A stretch of 64,000 nt of DNA from Methanolobus zinderi. GTDB taxonomy: Archaea; Halobacteriota; Methanosarcinia; Methanosarcinales; Methanosarcinaceae. Made by a program: the position numbers and the translations under genes. The stretch is from contig NZ_CP058215.1 of assembly GCF_013388255.1 (NCBI RefSeq), positions 310,001-374,000 of the forward strand, given 5' to 3'. Under the pieces are notes generated by a model. The model saw nothing but the letters and a program-made list of their open reading frames with translations, made no database searches and had not been told where the DNA came from. The first letter of the stretch is position 1. Each line of letters starts with the position of its first letter. Below are positions 2,994 to 31,541 of this stretch, piece by piece.

Positions 2994-3794
2994 ATGGTTA
3001 ACGAAAAACTAAGTTCCGATAATCTGAAAAATGTGGATATTGCAAAGGATGTACTCGATCAGCTTCCATGTATGGTAATGGCCGTTGATCTTGATTTTAA
3101 TATACTGTTCTTAAACGACACCGGGTGCGAATGGATGGGGGACGATTTTGAAAATGTCGAGGGTAAGAAGTGTTATGACCTGGTGAAGTCAGCCCATTGC
3201 AGAACCGATAACTGTCGCATCAAGCAGGCAATGAATAATGACAGGAAGTATGTATGGAGAAATGAGATCACAACCGGTGGTAAGACCTTCCCGATCGAAT
3301 ACACTGCGGCACCTCTGAAAGACAAGGACGGTAATATTGTGGGCGGAGTCGAGTACGTCATTGATATTTCCGAGAGGGTGGAGATCGAGAAAGAAGTTCA
3401 GGAACACAGCCGGACTATCATGGAGCTTTCCACTCCGGTTATCAAACTCTGGGACGGTATTGTCATACTTCCTCTTGTAGGGGTGATCGACACCATGCGT
3501 GCCCAGCAGATCATTGAGAATCTCCTGTCATCCATAGTTGAGAACGAAGCCACCGTGGCGATACTCGATGTGACCGGTGTTCCGATGATCGACACAAGCG
3601 TTGCACAGCATATTCTCAAGACTGTCAGTGCGGGCAAGATGCTTGGAGCTGAAATAATCATAACCGGTTTCAGTCCCAATGTTGCCCAGACTCTTGTAAC
3701 CCTCGGGGTTGACCTGAGCGATATTATCACCTGTGGCTCGTTAAAAGATGGTGTATCAAAAGCCTTCACGCTTGTGGGAAGAAAACTTGTGTAA
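2994..3794 (+). CDS. RsbR-like stressosome sensor (PAS + STAS)
   Basis: 266 residues. An N-terminal PAS domain (about 20-130) is followed by a short helix and a STAS domain (about 145-266). In bacterial stressosomes RsbR proteins carry a variable sensor in front of a STAS domain that packs with RsbS and holds RsbT. The STAS part has Thr201 in MIDTSVAQ and Thr224 in IIITGFSP, which by motif match the two phosphorylated threonines of Bacillus RsbRA. The PAS domain has Cys60, Cys69 and Cys74 in a pattern seen in several methanogen PAS domains and might bind a metal or sense redox; that is inference. AGGAGG precedes the ATG. First gene of a six-gene operon. Confidence 0.85.
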   Translation: MVNEKLSSDNLKNVDIAKDVLDQLPCMVMAVDLDFNILFLNDTGCEWMGDDFENVEGKKCYDLVKSAHCRTDNCRIKQAMNNDRKYVWRNEITTGGKTFPIEYTAAPLKDKDGNIVGGVEYVIDISERVEIEKEVQEHSRTIMELSTPVIKLWDGIVILPLVGVIDTMRAQQIIENLLSSIVENEATVAILDVTGVPMIDTSVAQHILKTVSAGKMLGAEIIITGFSPNVAQTLVTLGVDLSDIITCGSLKDGVSKAFTLVGRKLV

Positions 3795-3808: not shown

Positions 3809-4174
3809 GTGGAAATTCCAATACTGAAATTGAAAAATATTCTTCTCACCTCGATACAGAGTGATATGAACGATGATGACGCACTGAAATACCAGTCCGA
3901 TGTCATGTCAACTCTGGAGAAAAGCGGTGCTAAAGGCCTTATCATAGACATCACGGCAATGGATATCATGGACTCTTTCATGGCCCGCGTCATCAATGAG
4001 ACCGCAAGAATGGCACGCCTTATGGGTGCAAGGGTCGTCCTCTGTGGCATGCAACCAATGGTTGCGCTGACACTGGTTGAAATGGGGCGTGAGCTGATCG
4101 GTGTGGATACCGCACTGAATCTTGACAAAGGTTTTGACAAACTGATAAAAATGATCAACGAAGGGGTTGATTGA
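3809..4174 (+). CDS. RsbS-like STAS protein
   Basis: 121-residue single STAS domain, the length of the stressosome scaffold RsbS. The phosphorylation loop reads MDIMDSFMAR, with Ser56 at the place of the Ser that RsbT phosphorylates in Bacillus RsbS. The segment VVLCGMQPMVALTL has Cys where RsbR has the second Thr, as expected for RsbS rather than RsbR. Start is GTG at 3809 with GAGGTGA about 5 nt before it, 14 nt after the RsbR-like gene. The next gene overlaps its 3' end by 8 bases, so translation is probably coupled. Confidence 0.85.
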   Translation: MEIPILKLKNILLTSIQSDMNDDDALKYQSDVMSTLEKSGAKGLIIDITAMDIMDSFMARVINETARMARLMGARVVLCGMQPMVALTLVEMGRELIGVDTALNLDKGFDKLIKMINEGVD

Positions 4175-4577
4175 GATAAGTGAGACTAGTATTGATCTTC
4201 GGAATGAAGATGACATCCTCATAGCCAGGCAGACTGCAAGGAAAGAAATGGCTGACATAGGCTTTGGTTCTGCTGATCAGACACGTATGGCCACAGCGAT
4301 CTCCGAGCTGACAAGAAATGTGATCAAATATGCGGGAGAAGGTGTATGTCATATTGTTACGGGAGCTTCTTCTTCAGAGATACACATTAAAGTAGAGATC
4401 GAGGATTACGGGCCGGGCATTGTTGATGTGGACAAGGCTATGGAAGATGGCTATACAACTGGTGGCGGATTGGGTGCAGGCCTTCCCGGTGCAAAGAGGC
4501 TTGTTAATGATTTTCAGATAGAGTCGCAACCCGGATTGACAAAGATAAATCTGGAAATGAGTCGTCCCAATGTCTGA
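4167..4577 (+). CDS. RsbT-like serine/threonine kinase (HATPase_c)
   Basis: 136-residue GHKL-type kinase. The N box is SELTRNVIKYA (Asn51), the G1 box is DYGPGI and the second glycine-rich part is GGGLGAGLPGAKRL, the exact layout of RsbT. RsbT phosphorylates RsbS and RsbR in the stressosome and, once released, switches on a partner through that partner's N-terminal domain. Start is TTG at 4167, overlapping the RsbS-like gene by 8 bases. Position after R and S gives the canonical R-S-T order. Confidence 0.87.
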   Translation: MIEISETSIDLRNEDDILIARQTARKEMADIGFGSADQTRMATAISELTRNVIKYAGEGVCHIVTGASSSEIHIKVEIEDYGPGIVDVDKAMEDGYTTGGGLGAGLPGAKRLVNDFQIESQPGLTKINLEMSRPNV

Positions 4578-5013
4578 TATCCCTGCTTCCGGGTCTGCCG
4601 GAGAAAATCTTGAGGCAAGAGTGGAGGTAACAAGGATCGCTCACGTGGCAAATGTTCAGACCAAAGTGCGGGCAATCACAAGGATACTTGGTTTTCCTGA
4701 ACTGTACATATTCAGGGCGGCAATTTCAGCATCCGAACTTGCCTCAAATCTTGTGTATCACACTACAGCAGGTGGTACCATAAGTATCAGGGGGATCAGG
4801 AAAAAGGGATGCATCGGGATTGAGATCATTTCAGACGACTCGGGTCCGGGGATAAAGGATGTGAATATGGCTTTGCAGGATGGCTATTCAACGGGACCGG
4901 GCCTTGGATCTGGTCTTCCTGCTGTTGAAAGGTTGATGGATGAACTGGAAATTCTGGTAACAGACGATTTCAAAACATGTATTAGAAGCAGGTTGTGGTA
5001 TTTTTGCGAATAG
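4570..5013 (+). CDS. Second RsbT/RsbW-like HATPase kinase
   Basis: 147 residues, again a small GHKL ATPase: N box ISASELASNLVYH, G1 box DDSGPGI, and GPGLGSGLPAVERL. It is a diverged partner of the gene before it and overlaps it by 8 bases. Bacterial RST-type operons may carry extra RsbT/RsbW-like kinases, so it may phosphorylate one of the STAS proteins or act as an anti-regulator; which one cannot be read from sequence. Compared with the preceding kinase it has a longer N-terminus and ends in an unusual CIRSRLWYFCE tail, which I judged real and not a frameshift because it fits the last strand of the fold. Confidence 0.8.
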   Translation: MSDIPASGSAGENLEARVEVTRIAHVANVQTKVRAITRILGFPELYIFRAAISASELASNLVYHTTAGGTISIRGIRKKGCIGIEIISDDSGPGIKDVNMALQDGYSTGPGLGSGLPAVERLMDELEILVTDDFKTCIRSRLWYFCE

Positions 5014-5576
5014 CAATGGAATCACGTTCGTTCAATGGAGACGTACATTGTGGGGACCAGTGTGACTGGTGGCTTGAAGATAATATTCTGACCCTATGTA
5101 TGATCGACGGACTGGGTCATGGAAAACATGCAGAAGAAGCTGCAAAAGCGGCTCTGGGTTATGTGTCCTCCCATCTCGGCGAATCTCTGGATACTCTCTT
5201 CTCGGGATGTGACAGGGCTATAAAACAAACAAGAGGTGTTGCCATGGGTATTGTCCGTGTGGACCTGAATGAGTATAACCTTGAGTACGGAGGTATCGGG
5301 AACACTCGTGCTATGATCTACGGGGAAAACGGATCTCACTTTTCTTCAAGCTGGGGTATCGTGGGAGGCGGTTTCAGGCATTTGCATATCGAAAGAACAC
5401 AGTTATCCCCTGATAATCTCCTTCTCATGTGGACAGATGGTATACCTGAAAGTCTCAAAATTTCGGGATATGATAGGTATCTGCTTCAGGATGAACAGGA
5501 ACTGGCCAGAGCAATACTCGGAGATCATGGTCGTATGACAGATGATGCGACTATACTTGTGTATATGACAGGGTGA
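4995..5576 (+). CDS. RsbX-like PP2C/SpoIIE-type phosphatase
   Basis: 193-residue phosphatase of the SpoIIE/PP2C family, the size of RsbX with no sensor domain. Metal-binding acidic residues are seen in HCGDQCDWW, MIDGLGHGKHA, MWTDGIPE and MTDDATILV. RsbX removes phosphates from RsbS and RsbR and resets the stressosome. I keep the GTG at 4995, although it overlaps the previous gene by 19 bases, because the first strand (LRIAMES) is needed to align with the family; ATG 5016 would cut it off. The stop overlaps the next start by 4 bases. Confidence 0.83.
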   Translation: MVFLRIAMESRSFNGDVHCGDQCDWWLEDNILTLCMIDGLGHGKHAEEAAKAALGYVSSHLGESLDTLFSGCDRAIKQTRGVAMGIVRVDLNEYNLEYGGIGNTRAMIYGENGSHFSSSWGIVGGGFRHLHIERTQLSPDNLLLMWTDGIPESLKISGYDRYLLQDEQELARAILGDHGRMTDDATILVYMTG

Positions 5577-6598
5577 TGGATATTACAAAAACGGAATTCA
5601 ATGACAGGTATTATGAGATTTTAAAGGGTTATGTCGAGACCCATGAAGAAATATATCTTATGAGATCTGAAGATCTGGGTTATGAACTGGTAAAATTCAA
5701 CATTCCTCCGGAAGATATCATCGAGTTGCATGAAACCGCAGTTTCAAGATTGACCGCCGAACTTGCTCCCAAAAGAATGATAGAGTCAGTAGGTTTTCTT
5801 TCAACACCTCTGGTAGAAGTGATGATGGCATATGGACTTGCCTTCAGGCAATGGATCGAGGACCTGGAAAAGAGCAAGCAGGAACTTATGGTATATGCAG
5901 AGGAACTGCAGCACTCAAACCAGTTAAAAGAACTGTTTGCAGATATCCTACGCCATGATCTGTTAAACCCTGCATCTCTGATCAACGGCTTTGTCGGCAT
6001 TTTGCTTGAACTGGAGGACGATGAAAAGAAGAGGTCCTTGCTTTCCAATATTGAAAAAAGTAATATTAACCTGATCAATATTATTGAACAGGCAGCAGAA
6101 TTCGCCAAACTGGATTCAGTGACCGGACTGGATTTTTCAGAGCATGATCTCGGAGTGATCCTCACTAATATTGTAGATGAGTTCATACCGGAATTCGAAA
6201 AAAGAGAAATGACCATATCTCTGGAAACAGAAGGCAGCTATCCTGTATTGGTACACCCTACGATAAAACAGGTCTTTGCAAATCTTGTATCCAATGCGAT
6301 CAAGTACAGCCCCGAGGGAAGCCATGTGGGAATTTCCATTTCCGATTCAGATGATCAATGGAAGGCATGTGTAAAGGACCAGGGAAGTGGCATTCCCGAG
6401 GAGGACCGTGAACTTATCTTTACACGTTTTTCAAGGCTGGATAAAGCTAAAAAGGGAAGTATCAAGGGTACAGGCCTTGGTCTTGCAATTGTTCATAAGA
6501 TCGTAACTCTTCACAACGGCAGTGTCGGTGTGGATAGTAATTTTCCTGAAGAGGGCAGCACCTTCTGGGTCAGGCTCGATAAAGCTCAGGCAAATTAA
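5573..6598 (+). CDS. Histidine kinase with an RsbU N-terminal domain
   Basis: 341 residues. Residues 1-95 resemble the RsbT-binding N-terminal domain of Bacillus RsbU: compare IPPEDIIELH here with IPPEEIISIH, and VEVMMAYGLAF with IEVMIGYGMAY (recalled sequence). A coiled linker leads into HisKA with the H box ILRHDLLNP (His128), then a HATPase domain with NLVSNAIKYSPEG, DQGSGIPEED and KGTGLGLAIVHKI. There is no PP2C domain and no membrane segment, so it is a soluble kinase. It overlaps the phosphatase gene by 4 bases and closes the operon. The likely meaning is that released RsbT binds this N-terminus and controls autophosphorylation; no response regulator is next to it. Confidence 0.87.
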   Translation: MMDITKTEFNDRYYEILKGYVETHEEIYLMRSEDLGYELVKFNIPPEDIIELHETAVSRLTAELAPKRMIESVGFLSTPLVEVMMAYGLAFRQWIEDLEKSKQELMVYAEELQHSNQLKELFADILRHDLLNPASLINGFVGILLELEDDEKKRSLLSNIEKSNINLINIIEQAAEFAKLDSVTGLDFSEHDLGVILTNIVDEFIPEFEKREMTISLETEGSYPVLVHPTIKQVFANLVSNAIKYSPEGSHVGISISDSDDQWKACVKDQGSGIPEEDRELIFTRFSRLDKAKKGSIKGTGLGLAIVHKIVTLHNGSVGVDSNFPEEGSTFWVRLDKAQAN

Positions 6599-30020: not shown

Positions 30021-31541
30021 ATGATTGAACAGTACAGGCCCAGGACCCTGATTGTAGACGATGACCCTATCAATGTCCAGTTAATGGAAGCCCAACTGGT
30101 CAGTAAATATGATATTTTTGAGGCTTTCAGTGGTGAAGAGGCACTTGATATCCTAAGCAGGAAAAAACCTGATCTTATCATTCTTGATGTTATGATGCCT
30201 GGCATAAACGGTTATGAAGTATGCAGGCGCATAAAATCATCTGAAGAAACCAGTTTTATTCCGGTTATAATCGTCACAGCCCTGTCTTCAAGAGATGACA
30301 GGCTGGAAGGTATAGAAGCAGGAGCAGATGATTTCCTCACAAAGCCCATTGACAGGGTCGAACTGCTCACCCGCTCGAAAAATCTCCTGGAGAGTAAAAA
30401 ACTGCATGACAGACTGGTATCTTCCGAGCAGAAATTCAGGACACTTTTTGAAAACTCGGTGGATGCTATCATTCTATTTACCCGGGAAGGCGCTGTTCTG
30501 GAAGCAAATGCTGCAGCCTGCAGTATGCTGGGCTATGAACATGAAGCGCTTCTCGGTATGTCCAGGGAAGATCTGGTTGCACCCGAATACCGGGGAAAAT
30601 GCATGGAAAATACCGCCTCAGTTCTGGAAAATGGACAGGCAACATTCGAAGCCCTCTATGTAAAAAAGGATGGTTCCAGAGTTCCTGTGGAAATGAGTGT
30701 AAACCTTATAGATTACGGTGGCATACCGGCTTTCCTGAACAACGGACGTGACATAAGCGAACGCAAAAAAGCAGAGGAAGCTATCAGTAAATACACAGAG
30801 GATCTCTCAAAGGCAAATCAGGCCTTAAAGTCACTGGACCGGATGAAGGATGAGTTCGTGTCCAATCTCAGCCATGAGCTAAAGACTCCGCTGATATCCA
30901 TCAAAGGTTACAGTGAACTTGTGCACGATGAGGTGCTTGGTCCGTTAAATGATAAGCAGAAAAATGCCATGCAGACCGTACTCGATAAATACGATCATCT
31001 GAGTTTCCTTCTGGACTCGCTTATTTATATGAGTATAGCCAAGTCCGGAAAAGTCAACTACAGGTTCGATCCTGTAAGGATCGAGGACAGTCTCAAAAGA
31101 ATTGCTGAATACTTTTCTTTCAAGGCCGGAGAAAAGCAGATAACGATCTCCACTTCCTTTGAGGATAATCTGCCACTTGTGATGGGTGATGTGGAGTACC
31201 TCCCGTATCTTTTCAGGTCCCTTGTGGATAATGCCATAAAATTCAGTCCCGAGGGTGGCACTGTGCTTATTACAGCTTTCCGGGAAGACGGACACGTGCA
31301 CGCCACGATAAAAGATAGTGGTATAGGCATACCGAAAACCGAATTCTCAAACGTTTTCAAGCGATTTTACCAGGTCGACAGCTCGATGGCAAGGAAATAC
31401 GGTGGCAGCGGACTTGGCCTCTACGTAAGTAAAATGATCACAGAGGTCCATTCCGGTGAGATCTGGATCGAGAGTCAGGAAGGTTTCGGGACTACAGTGC
31501 ATATTAGATTCCCGGCCTATTCTCCTTCACCCGGAAGATAG
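30021..31541 (+). CDS. Hybrid response regulator-PAS-histidine kinase
   Basis: 506 residues, no membrane span. Residues 8-125 form a receiver domain with the phospho-Asp56 in LDVMMPG and the conserved Lys in FLTKPID; residues about 135-250 form a PAS domain (ILFTREGAVLEANAAACSML); residues about 275-500 form HisKA and HATPase (LSHELKTPLISIKGYSEL, NAIKFSPEGG, IKDSGIGIP, GGSGLGLYVSKM). The receiver in front of the kinase means it is likely controlled by another kinase, possibly the RsbU-domain kinase at 5573, though that is a guess. It is followed by nth but with its own promoter. Confidence 0.88.
   Translation: MIEQYRPRTLIVDDDPINVQLMEAQLVSKYDIFEAFSGEEALDILSRKKPDLIILDVMMPGINGYEVCRRIKSSEETSFIPVIIVTALSSRDDRLEGIEAGADDFLTKPIDRVELLTRSKNLLESKKLHDRLVSSEQKFRTLFENSVDAIILFTREGAVLEANAAACSMLGYEHEALLGMSREDLVAPEYRGKCMENTASVLENGQATFEALYVKKDGSRVPVEMSVNLIDYGGIPAFLNNGRDISERKKAEEAISKYTEDLSKANQALKSLDRMKDEFVSNLSHELKTPLISIKGYSELVHDEVLGPLNDKQKNAMQTVLDKYDHLSFLLDSLIYMSIAKSGKVNYRFDPVRIEDSLKRIAEYFSFKAGEKQITISTSFEDNLPLVMGDVEYLPYLFRSLVDNAIKFSPEGGTVLITAFREDGHVHATIKDSGIGIPKTEFSNVFKRFYQVDSSMARKYGGSGLGLYVSKMITEVHSGEIWIESQEGFGTTVHIRFPAYSPSPGR

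Follow-up and report, generated by a model that had tools for sequence, protein, structure and literature searches.

The last gene of a six-gene operon in Methanolobus zinderi encodes a histidine kinase that begins with an RsbU-type docking domain, and through this protein an archaeal stressosome quite probably delivers its output, with RsbT docking on the RsbU_N domain as the trigger. Because RsbU_N is here joined to a histidine kinase, the predicted output is a phosphorelay in place of the phosphatase of RsbU. Coordinates below refer to the window, that is, the whole 64,000-nucleotide stretch of DNA analysed.

An RsbU_N domain is fused to a HisKA-type kinase

The kinase consists of RsbU_N, a helical linker, HisKA and HATPase_c, with the following features.

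5573..6598, plus strand: RsbU_N-histidine kinase gene, open frame of 341 aa, sixth and final gene of the operon
Kinase residues 12-90: RsbU_N (PF08673), E 1.4e-13, 51.2 bits against a cut-off of 25.5 (Pfam)
Kinase residues 119-182: HisKA, E 1.5e-6 (Pfam)
Kinase residues 230-338: HATPase_c, E 6e-29 (Pfam)
Codon at 5954: phospho-acceptor His128, motif HDLLN

A preliminary description of this DNA had proposed an RsbU-type N-terminal domain followed by HisKA (His128) and HATPase with no phosphatase. Both parts are borne out: the RsbU N-terminal profile that it named as a check scored above its cut-off, and the Pfam scan of the 341 residues detected no PP2C/SpoIIE domain. When residues 1-120 were run against the PDB with phmmer, the only significant matches were the four Bacillus subtilis RsbU N-domain entries (2j6z, E 1.3e-8). 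The domain is the sole RsbU_N of the 2.70-Mb genome. In the catalytic half, the H box, N box, G1 box and G2 box of a HisKA-type kinase are all present, and H128, N241, D269-x-G-x-G (G271, G273) and G299/301/303 are invariant across 18 aligned kinase sequences.

A fold search with the whole kinase retrieved the kinase fold and was uninformative for RsbU_N. With the AlphaFold model of residues 1-115 (pLDDT 92), the top Foldseek rows were 1w53 and 2j6y (prob 0.97-0.99) at a weak E of 0.1, with TM 0.45-0.48/0.62-0.65 and an rmsd of about 6.4 Å. VIA-align gave the RsbU fold a Z of about 7 over 65-69 residues and scored several other helical folds higher. Given the weak Foldseek E value, the large rmsd and the preference of the second aligner for other helical folds, the RsbU_N assignment stands on sequence; the modelled fold agrees with it and would be no proof alone.

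The start of the kinase is uncertain. Five Methanolobus loci (L018, L020, L021, L022 and L023) have no ATG, GTG or TTG before the conserved first helix. They share an ATT about 5 nt past a GGTGAT that resembles a strong Shine-Dalgarno sequence and overlaps the stop codon of rsbX, and an identical ATT lies at 5582 in the window (region 5570-5590). This ATT is a possible start codon of the Methanolobus kinase.

The kinase gene closes a stressosome operon

Six genes that overlap or almost touch make up the operon; the five upstream of the kinase are as follows.

2994..3794, plus strand: rsbR-like, PAS sensor and STAS (PAS_4 2e-15, STAS 1.7e-14, Pfam)
3809..4174, plus strand: rsbS, single STAS (B. 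subtilis RsbS 6jhk 2.3e-31; Listeria RsbS 1.8e-30)
4167..4577, plus strand: rsbT, switch kinase of the GHKL type (HATPase_c, Pfam)
4570..5013, plus strand: W2, second RsbT-like GHKL ATPase (HATPase_c_2 4e-8, Pfam)
4995..5576, plus strand: rsbX-like PP2C/SpoIIE phosphatase (PDB 3zt9, a stressosome phosphatase from Moorella, 2.2e-18; RsbX 3w40 2.8e-11)

Homologues of RsbR, RsbS, RsbT and RsbX thus lie in one operon, as in rsbRSTX modules. The preliminary description had recognised the exchange of a phosphatase switch for a phosphorelay switch, which holds in that RsbU_N sits on a kinase, but it made no mention of the rsbR-rsbS-rsbT-(second GHKL)-rsbX genes.

The STAS half of RsbR matched the Vibrio and Listeria RsbR cryo-EM chains at 1e-32. 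The Listeria phosphosites are T175 and T209 of RsbR and S56 of RsbS (PMC12154155), to which correspond T167 (codon 3492) and T201 (codon 3594) of RsbR and S56 (codon 3974) of RsbS; the DSF/DSY serine of RsbS is conserved in 24/24 relatives. RsbT has the equivalents of R19, R23, D78 and D92, as mapped on a B. subtilis RsbT sequence whose residues 19, 23, 24 and 92 agree with PMC12143880. The ATP motifs of W2 appear intact by eye; the arginines with which RsbT would dock RsbU are not kept in it. PDB phmmer searches with RsbT and with W2 gave no matches. Together, these features indicate a stressosome module with known phosphosites and catalytic motifs kept, whose core assembly is putative.

Genome-wide, RsbR and RsbS were the only STAS proteins found, which argues that no RsbV-type relay acts downstream and that W2 probably acts on RsbR/RsbS or on RsbX. 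The rsbX and W2 frames overlap by 19 nt. A programmed frameshift fusing W2 and RsbX was considered and rejected, as relatives do not share the T5 run at about 5001 and the overlap alone is kept across the genus. Separately, the PAS domain of RsbR contains C60-x8-C69-x4-C74 in all Methanolobus copies but one, which is interrupted by an assembly gap, and the cysteines are arranged similarly in RsbR of Methanosarcina and of L039/L040; these cysteines (residues 60-74) might form a haem, metal or redox site.

An alternative route from RsbT to the kinase would be Ser/Thr phosphorylation without RsbU_N docking. RsbT does look like an active GHKL kinase, and Heinz et al. offered this idea for kinases without RsbU_N, proposing it for Vibrio D1 because D1 lacks that domain (PMC9237108). 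The Vibrio vulnificus stressosome-linked kinase, which lacks RsbU_N, showed no RsbT binding in that study, a point that weighs against the docking mechanism favoured here. The Methanolobus kinase, by contrast, has RsbU_N, and we give the phosphorylation route only a very slim chance.

The predicted RsbT-RsbU_N interface is partly conserved and leads into a possible signalling helix

Docking of RsbT on RsbU_N orders the coiled-coil linker and thereby activates RsbU (eLife 2025, PMC12143880). The contacts involve RsbU E24, Y28, I74 and I78 and RsbT R19, R23 and N24, and the same docking mode has been proposed for RsbU_N-bearing kinases and cyclases (PMC12143880). In the 27/27 RsbTs mapped, R19 is invariant and position 23 is Arg or Lys; in the M. 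zinderi RsbT, N24 is K. On the other side, RsbU E24 corresponds to E26 of the kinase, which is invariant among archaeal RsbU_N sequences, and the remaining contacts change from Y28 to M30, I74 to V81 and I78 to M85. RsbU R91, a further known contact residue, aligns with E99, where the alignment is uncertain. The interface thus appears to be kept in part only, with hydrophobic contacts swapped for other hydrophobics.

That several contact residues differ from B. subtilis would suit a view of RsbU_N as only a dimerisation and helix-phasing module, with RsbT not being the input and the kinase controlled otherwise or constitutive. This view does not account for retention of the docking arginines and of E26 while the paralogue W2 does not keep residue 23 (R, L, T, K, Q, V or M at that position), and we consider it unlikely, also in light of the comparisons below.

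In the AlphaFold model, a continuous helix spans residues 77-147, through the linker to His128. The spacing from Tyr87 to the phospho-His is 41 in the stressosome-linked Methanolobus kinases, L039/L040 and one Rhodospirillaceae kinase, and 34 in L038/L041/L042, Magnetovibrio and both orphan Methanolobus kinases described below. The two values differ by exactly one heptad (n=16 short-linker H-D/E-L-type RsbU_N kinases, archaeal and bacterial), a step that should be tolerable for a coiled-coil helix that transmits signals. The spacing is 38 in AHDFN-type kinases, and the long-linker kinase L077, with a spacing of 87, falls outside the heptad phase.

Two Methanolobus species retain the kinase without the stressosome

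We compared 27 Methanolobus genomes, with M. halotolerans, M. vulcani and Methanolobus sp. UBA118 as named close relatives. RsbU_N is present in 9/27: seven have the full operon and two (G060 and G062) the kinase alone, while 18 have neither. The full operon sits between serB and mtd wherever the contig shows it (the G048 contig is short), and the orphan kinases occupy the same place. In the 18 operon-less genomes serB adjoins mtd with nothing of size between, except that the gap in G051 (L107) contains a fragment resembling the first ~35 codons of rsbR, the operon being otherwise gone. G060 has a short stretch like the end of rsbX. Both remnants point to loss of the operon by deletion.

This patchy distribution and the genome that retains only an rsbR fragment could be read as signs of a decaying, non-functional acquisition. 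The M. zinderi operon itself argues otherwise, with six of six frames open and catalytic motifs kept, and dN/dS in linked pairs, where estimable, is 0.06-0.24, well under 1. Decay is the least probable of the readings considered, slightly behind even RsbT phosphorylation.

The kinases of G060 and G062 are intact. RsbT was not found in either genome, and the search for STAS proteins there gave none besides ~560-aa frames, which are transporter-sized. Among the sites on which all seven linked kinases agree, both orphans have diverged at 17/68 positions of RsbU_N and linker versus 8/131 of the kinase part (Fisher p 4e-4, with probably one loss event underlying both orphans). The changes include M30 and M85, the equivalents of contacts Y28 and I78. 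Between the two orphans, dN/dS of RsbU_N is about 0.06, a rough figure given the probable single event and a high dS of about 1.4. The docking module thus appears to have shifted upon RsbT loss and then to have stayed under selection. These kinases bear on the dimerisation-only view from both sides: an intact RsbU_N kinase retained without RsbT, RsbR or RsbS, under strong purifying selection, is what that view would predict, but the disproportionate alteration of RsbU_N and linker after RsbT loss is expected if RsbT had constrained both.

The module recurs across archaea and bacteria

RsbU_N occurs in 23/392 genomes sampled across the phylum. By eye, the archaeal domains sit on short kinases (L038-L042), on PAS- or GAF-bearing kinases (L014, L045 and L049), on another kinase (L050), and with GAF-like or PAS-like regions but no kinase in L043, L044, L047, L048 and L051; a kinase is therefore a common yet not the sole RsbU_N partner in archaea. 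Among bacteria, Nitrospiraceae, Poribacteria, Planctomycetales and Magnetovibrio share the order R-S-T-W2-X-RsbU_N protein. Dehalococcoidia have T-W2-X-RsbU_N, and one of their RsbU_N proteins terminates, by eye, in an HD-type domain. Recurrence of the rsbRSTX and RsbU_N gene order across unrelated phyla also argues against a role of RsbU_N in dimerisation only.

W2 separates rsbT from rsbX not only in Methanolobus but also in several phyla of bacteria (loci L077, L079, L080, L081, L083, L084 and L086), and is missing from the three Methanosarcina loci. In the RsbT tree, which is arbitrarily rooted and contains some long branches, Methanosarcinaceae group with the bacteria of W2 order, apart from other archaea and one Desulfobacteraceae (split 100/99). 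The tree suggests that archaea gained the module at least twice separately, the Methanosarcinaceae from bacteria.

Two loci deserve separate mention. On the archaeal contig of L038 (3260-6909), a stressosome-kinase operon is followed by cheR-, cheD-, cheC- and cheA-like genes (by eye), hinting at a link to taxis. In Methanophagales (L046/L078, G189), RsbU_N is followed by the beginning of an HRVKNN-type (HisKA_2-like) kinase; the frame stops early, at 199 aa, and no rsbRST genes were found nearby.

Candidate partner response regulators

No response regulator adjoins the M. zinderi kinase, and the genome has 20 receiver domains. Elsewhere, receivers neighbour RsbU_N kinases, upstream of rsbR in L039 and L040 and downstream of the kinase in L045. 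The receiver at 30021-30400, put forward earlier as a candidate cognate regulator, belongs to a receiver-PAS-kinase gene whose full-length orthologue was recovered from a single further genome (G048), while G052 and G041 gave partial matches. Since the orthologue was not recovered in the other six kinase-bearing genomes, it is not co-distributed with the kinase and we rejected it as a conserved partner. Of the receivers in the M. zinderi genome, the one most similar to that of L045 stands alone in its gene (G000:C1:2159539-2159910, 63% identity). It is present in 27/27 Methanolobus genomes and elsewhere, irrespective of the kinase, and this universality in the genus neither confirms nor excludes it. 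Neither of the two receivers examined (0/2) is specific to kinase-bearing species. The C1:2159539 receiver adjoins a gene with a receiver as its C-terminal half, which may be the KaiC-receiver fusion that PMC5847659 describes from this family.

A model for stressosome output through a histidine kinase

In the mechanism we propose, RsbR and RsbS would build a core that retains RsbT. A signal reaching the PAS domain of RsbR would lead RsbT to phosphorylate RsbR T167 and RsbS S56, and RsbT would then leave the core. Released RsbT would dock on the RsbU_N dimer of the kinase, with RsbT R19/R23 opposite RsbU_N E26. Docking might stiffen or re-register the unbroken helix from RsbU_N to His128, and the altered helix would change kinase or phosphatase activity toward a response regulator encoded elsewhere; RsbX would reset the core. 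We infer the docking, the phosphotransfer and the partner regulator; docking may turn the kinase either on or off. More tentatively, and at somewhat less than even confidence, the archaeal stressosome may drive the kinase through RsbT docking with no downstream sigma factor/STAS cascade and with W2 as a built-in modulator, the kinase having been freed in two Methanolobus species, where its docking module would serve another purpose under new selection.

Discussion

Modules of rsbRSTX type occur in some archaea (Heinz 2022, PMC9237108). According to the same paper, downstream modules include HisKA phosphorelays and some proteobacterial downstream proteins carry RsbU_N, and an RsbU_N histidine kinase in a stressosome operon has been modelled as 'NreB' (eLife 2025, PMC12143880). 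With RsbU_N kinases already published in proteobacterial stressosome operons, the kinase swap is not a new type of system; Methanolobus is a new archaeal case of a known one. As in the proteobacterial systems, the RsbU_N kinase is encoded directly after rsbRSTX. The Methanolobus module differs in its archaeal host, in having a PAS RsbR where theirs is a globin RsbR, in having no response regulator next to the kinase, and in an added GHKL gene between rsbT and rsbX, which the text drawn on from PMC9237108 and PMC12143880 does not name. In the portions of the stressosome literature searched, we found no assigned role for this second GHKL gene (W2).

Like B. subtilis RsbU, the kinase has an N-terminal RsbT-docking domain and a helical linker, but HisKA-HATPase takes the place of PP2C, and RsbV, RsbW and the sigma-B pathway are missing, with two STAS domains genome-wide. 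In Moorella thermoacetica MtG (RsbU_N-GAF-GGDEF; PMC12143880), RsbT/RsbU_N likewise drives another output enzyme, a diguanylate cyclase rather than a histidine kinase. The Vibrio vulnificus VvD1-VvD2 locus resembles that of Methanolobus in having a two-component system downstream of a stressosome; VvD1, unlike the Methanolobus kinase, has no detectable RsbU_N (PMC9237108). Stressosomes and STAS are not mentioned in the text of the 2018 census of archaeal two-component systems (PMC5847659), and our search of the open-access literature turned up no work on a stressosome in methanogens.

What is new is the pattern within Methanolobus (7 complete, 18 absent and 2 kinase-only), with changes concentrated in the RsbU_N and linker of the orphans. 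Two points merit attention, namely W2 and the kinases that persist where the stressosome is gone. Stressosome research centres on bacteria and sigma-B, and Methanolobus holds a whole module; to our knowledge, bacterial sigma factors are absent from archaea. Because the genome encodes just two STAS proteins, cross-talk should interfere little with tests of how RsbT is wired to the kinase. The genus, with its complete, kinase-only and empty states, offers a natural experiment on the constraint that RsbT binding imposes on RsbU_N.
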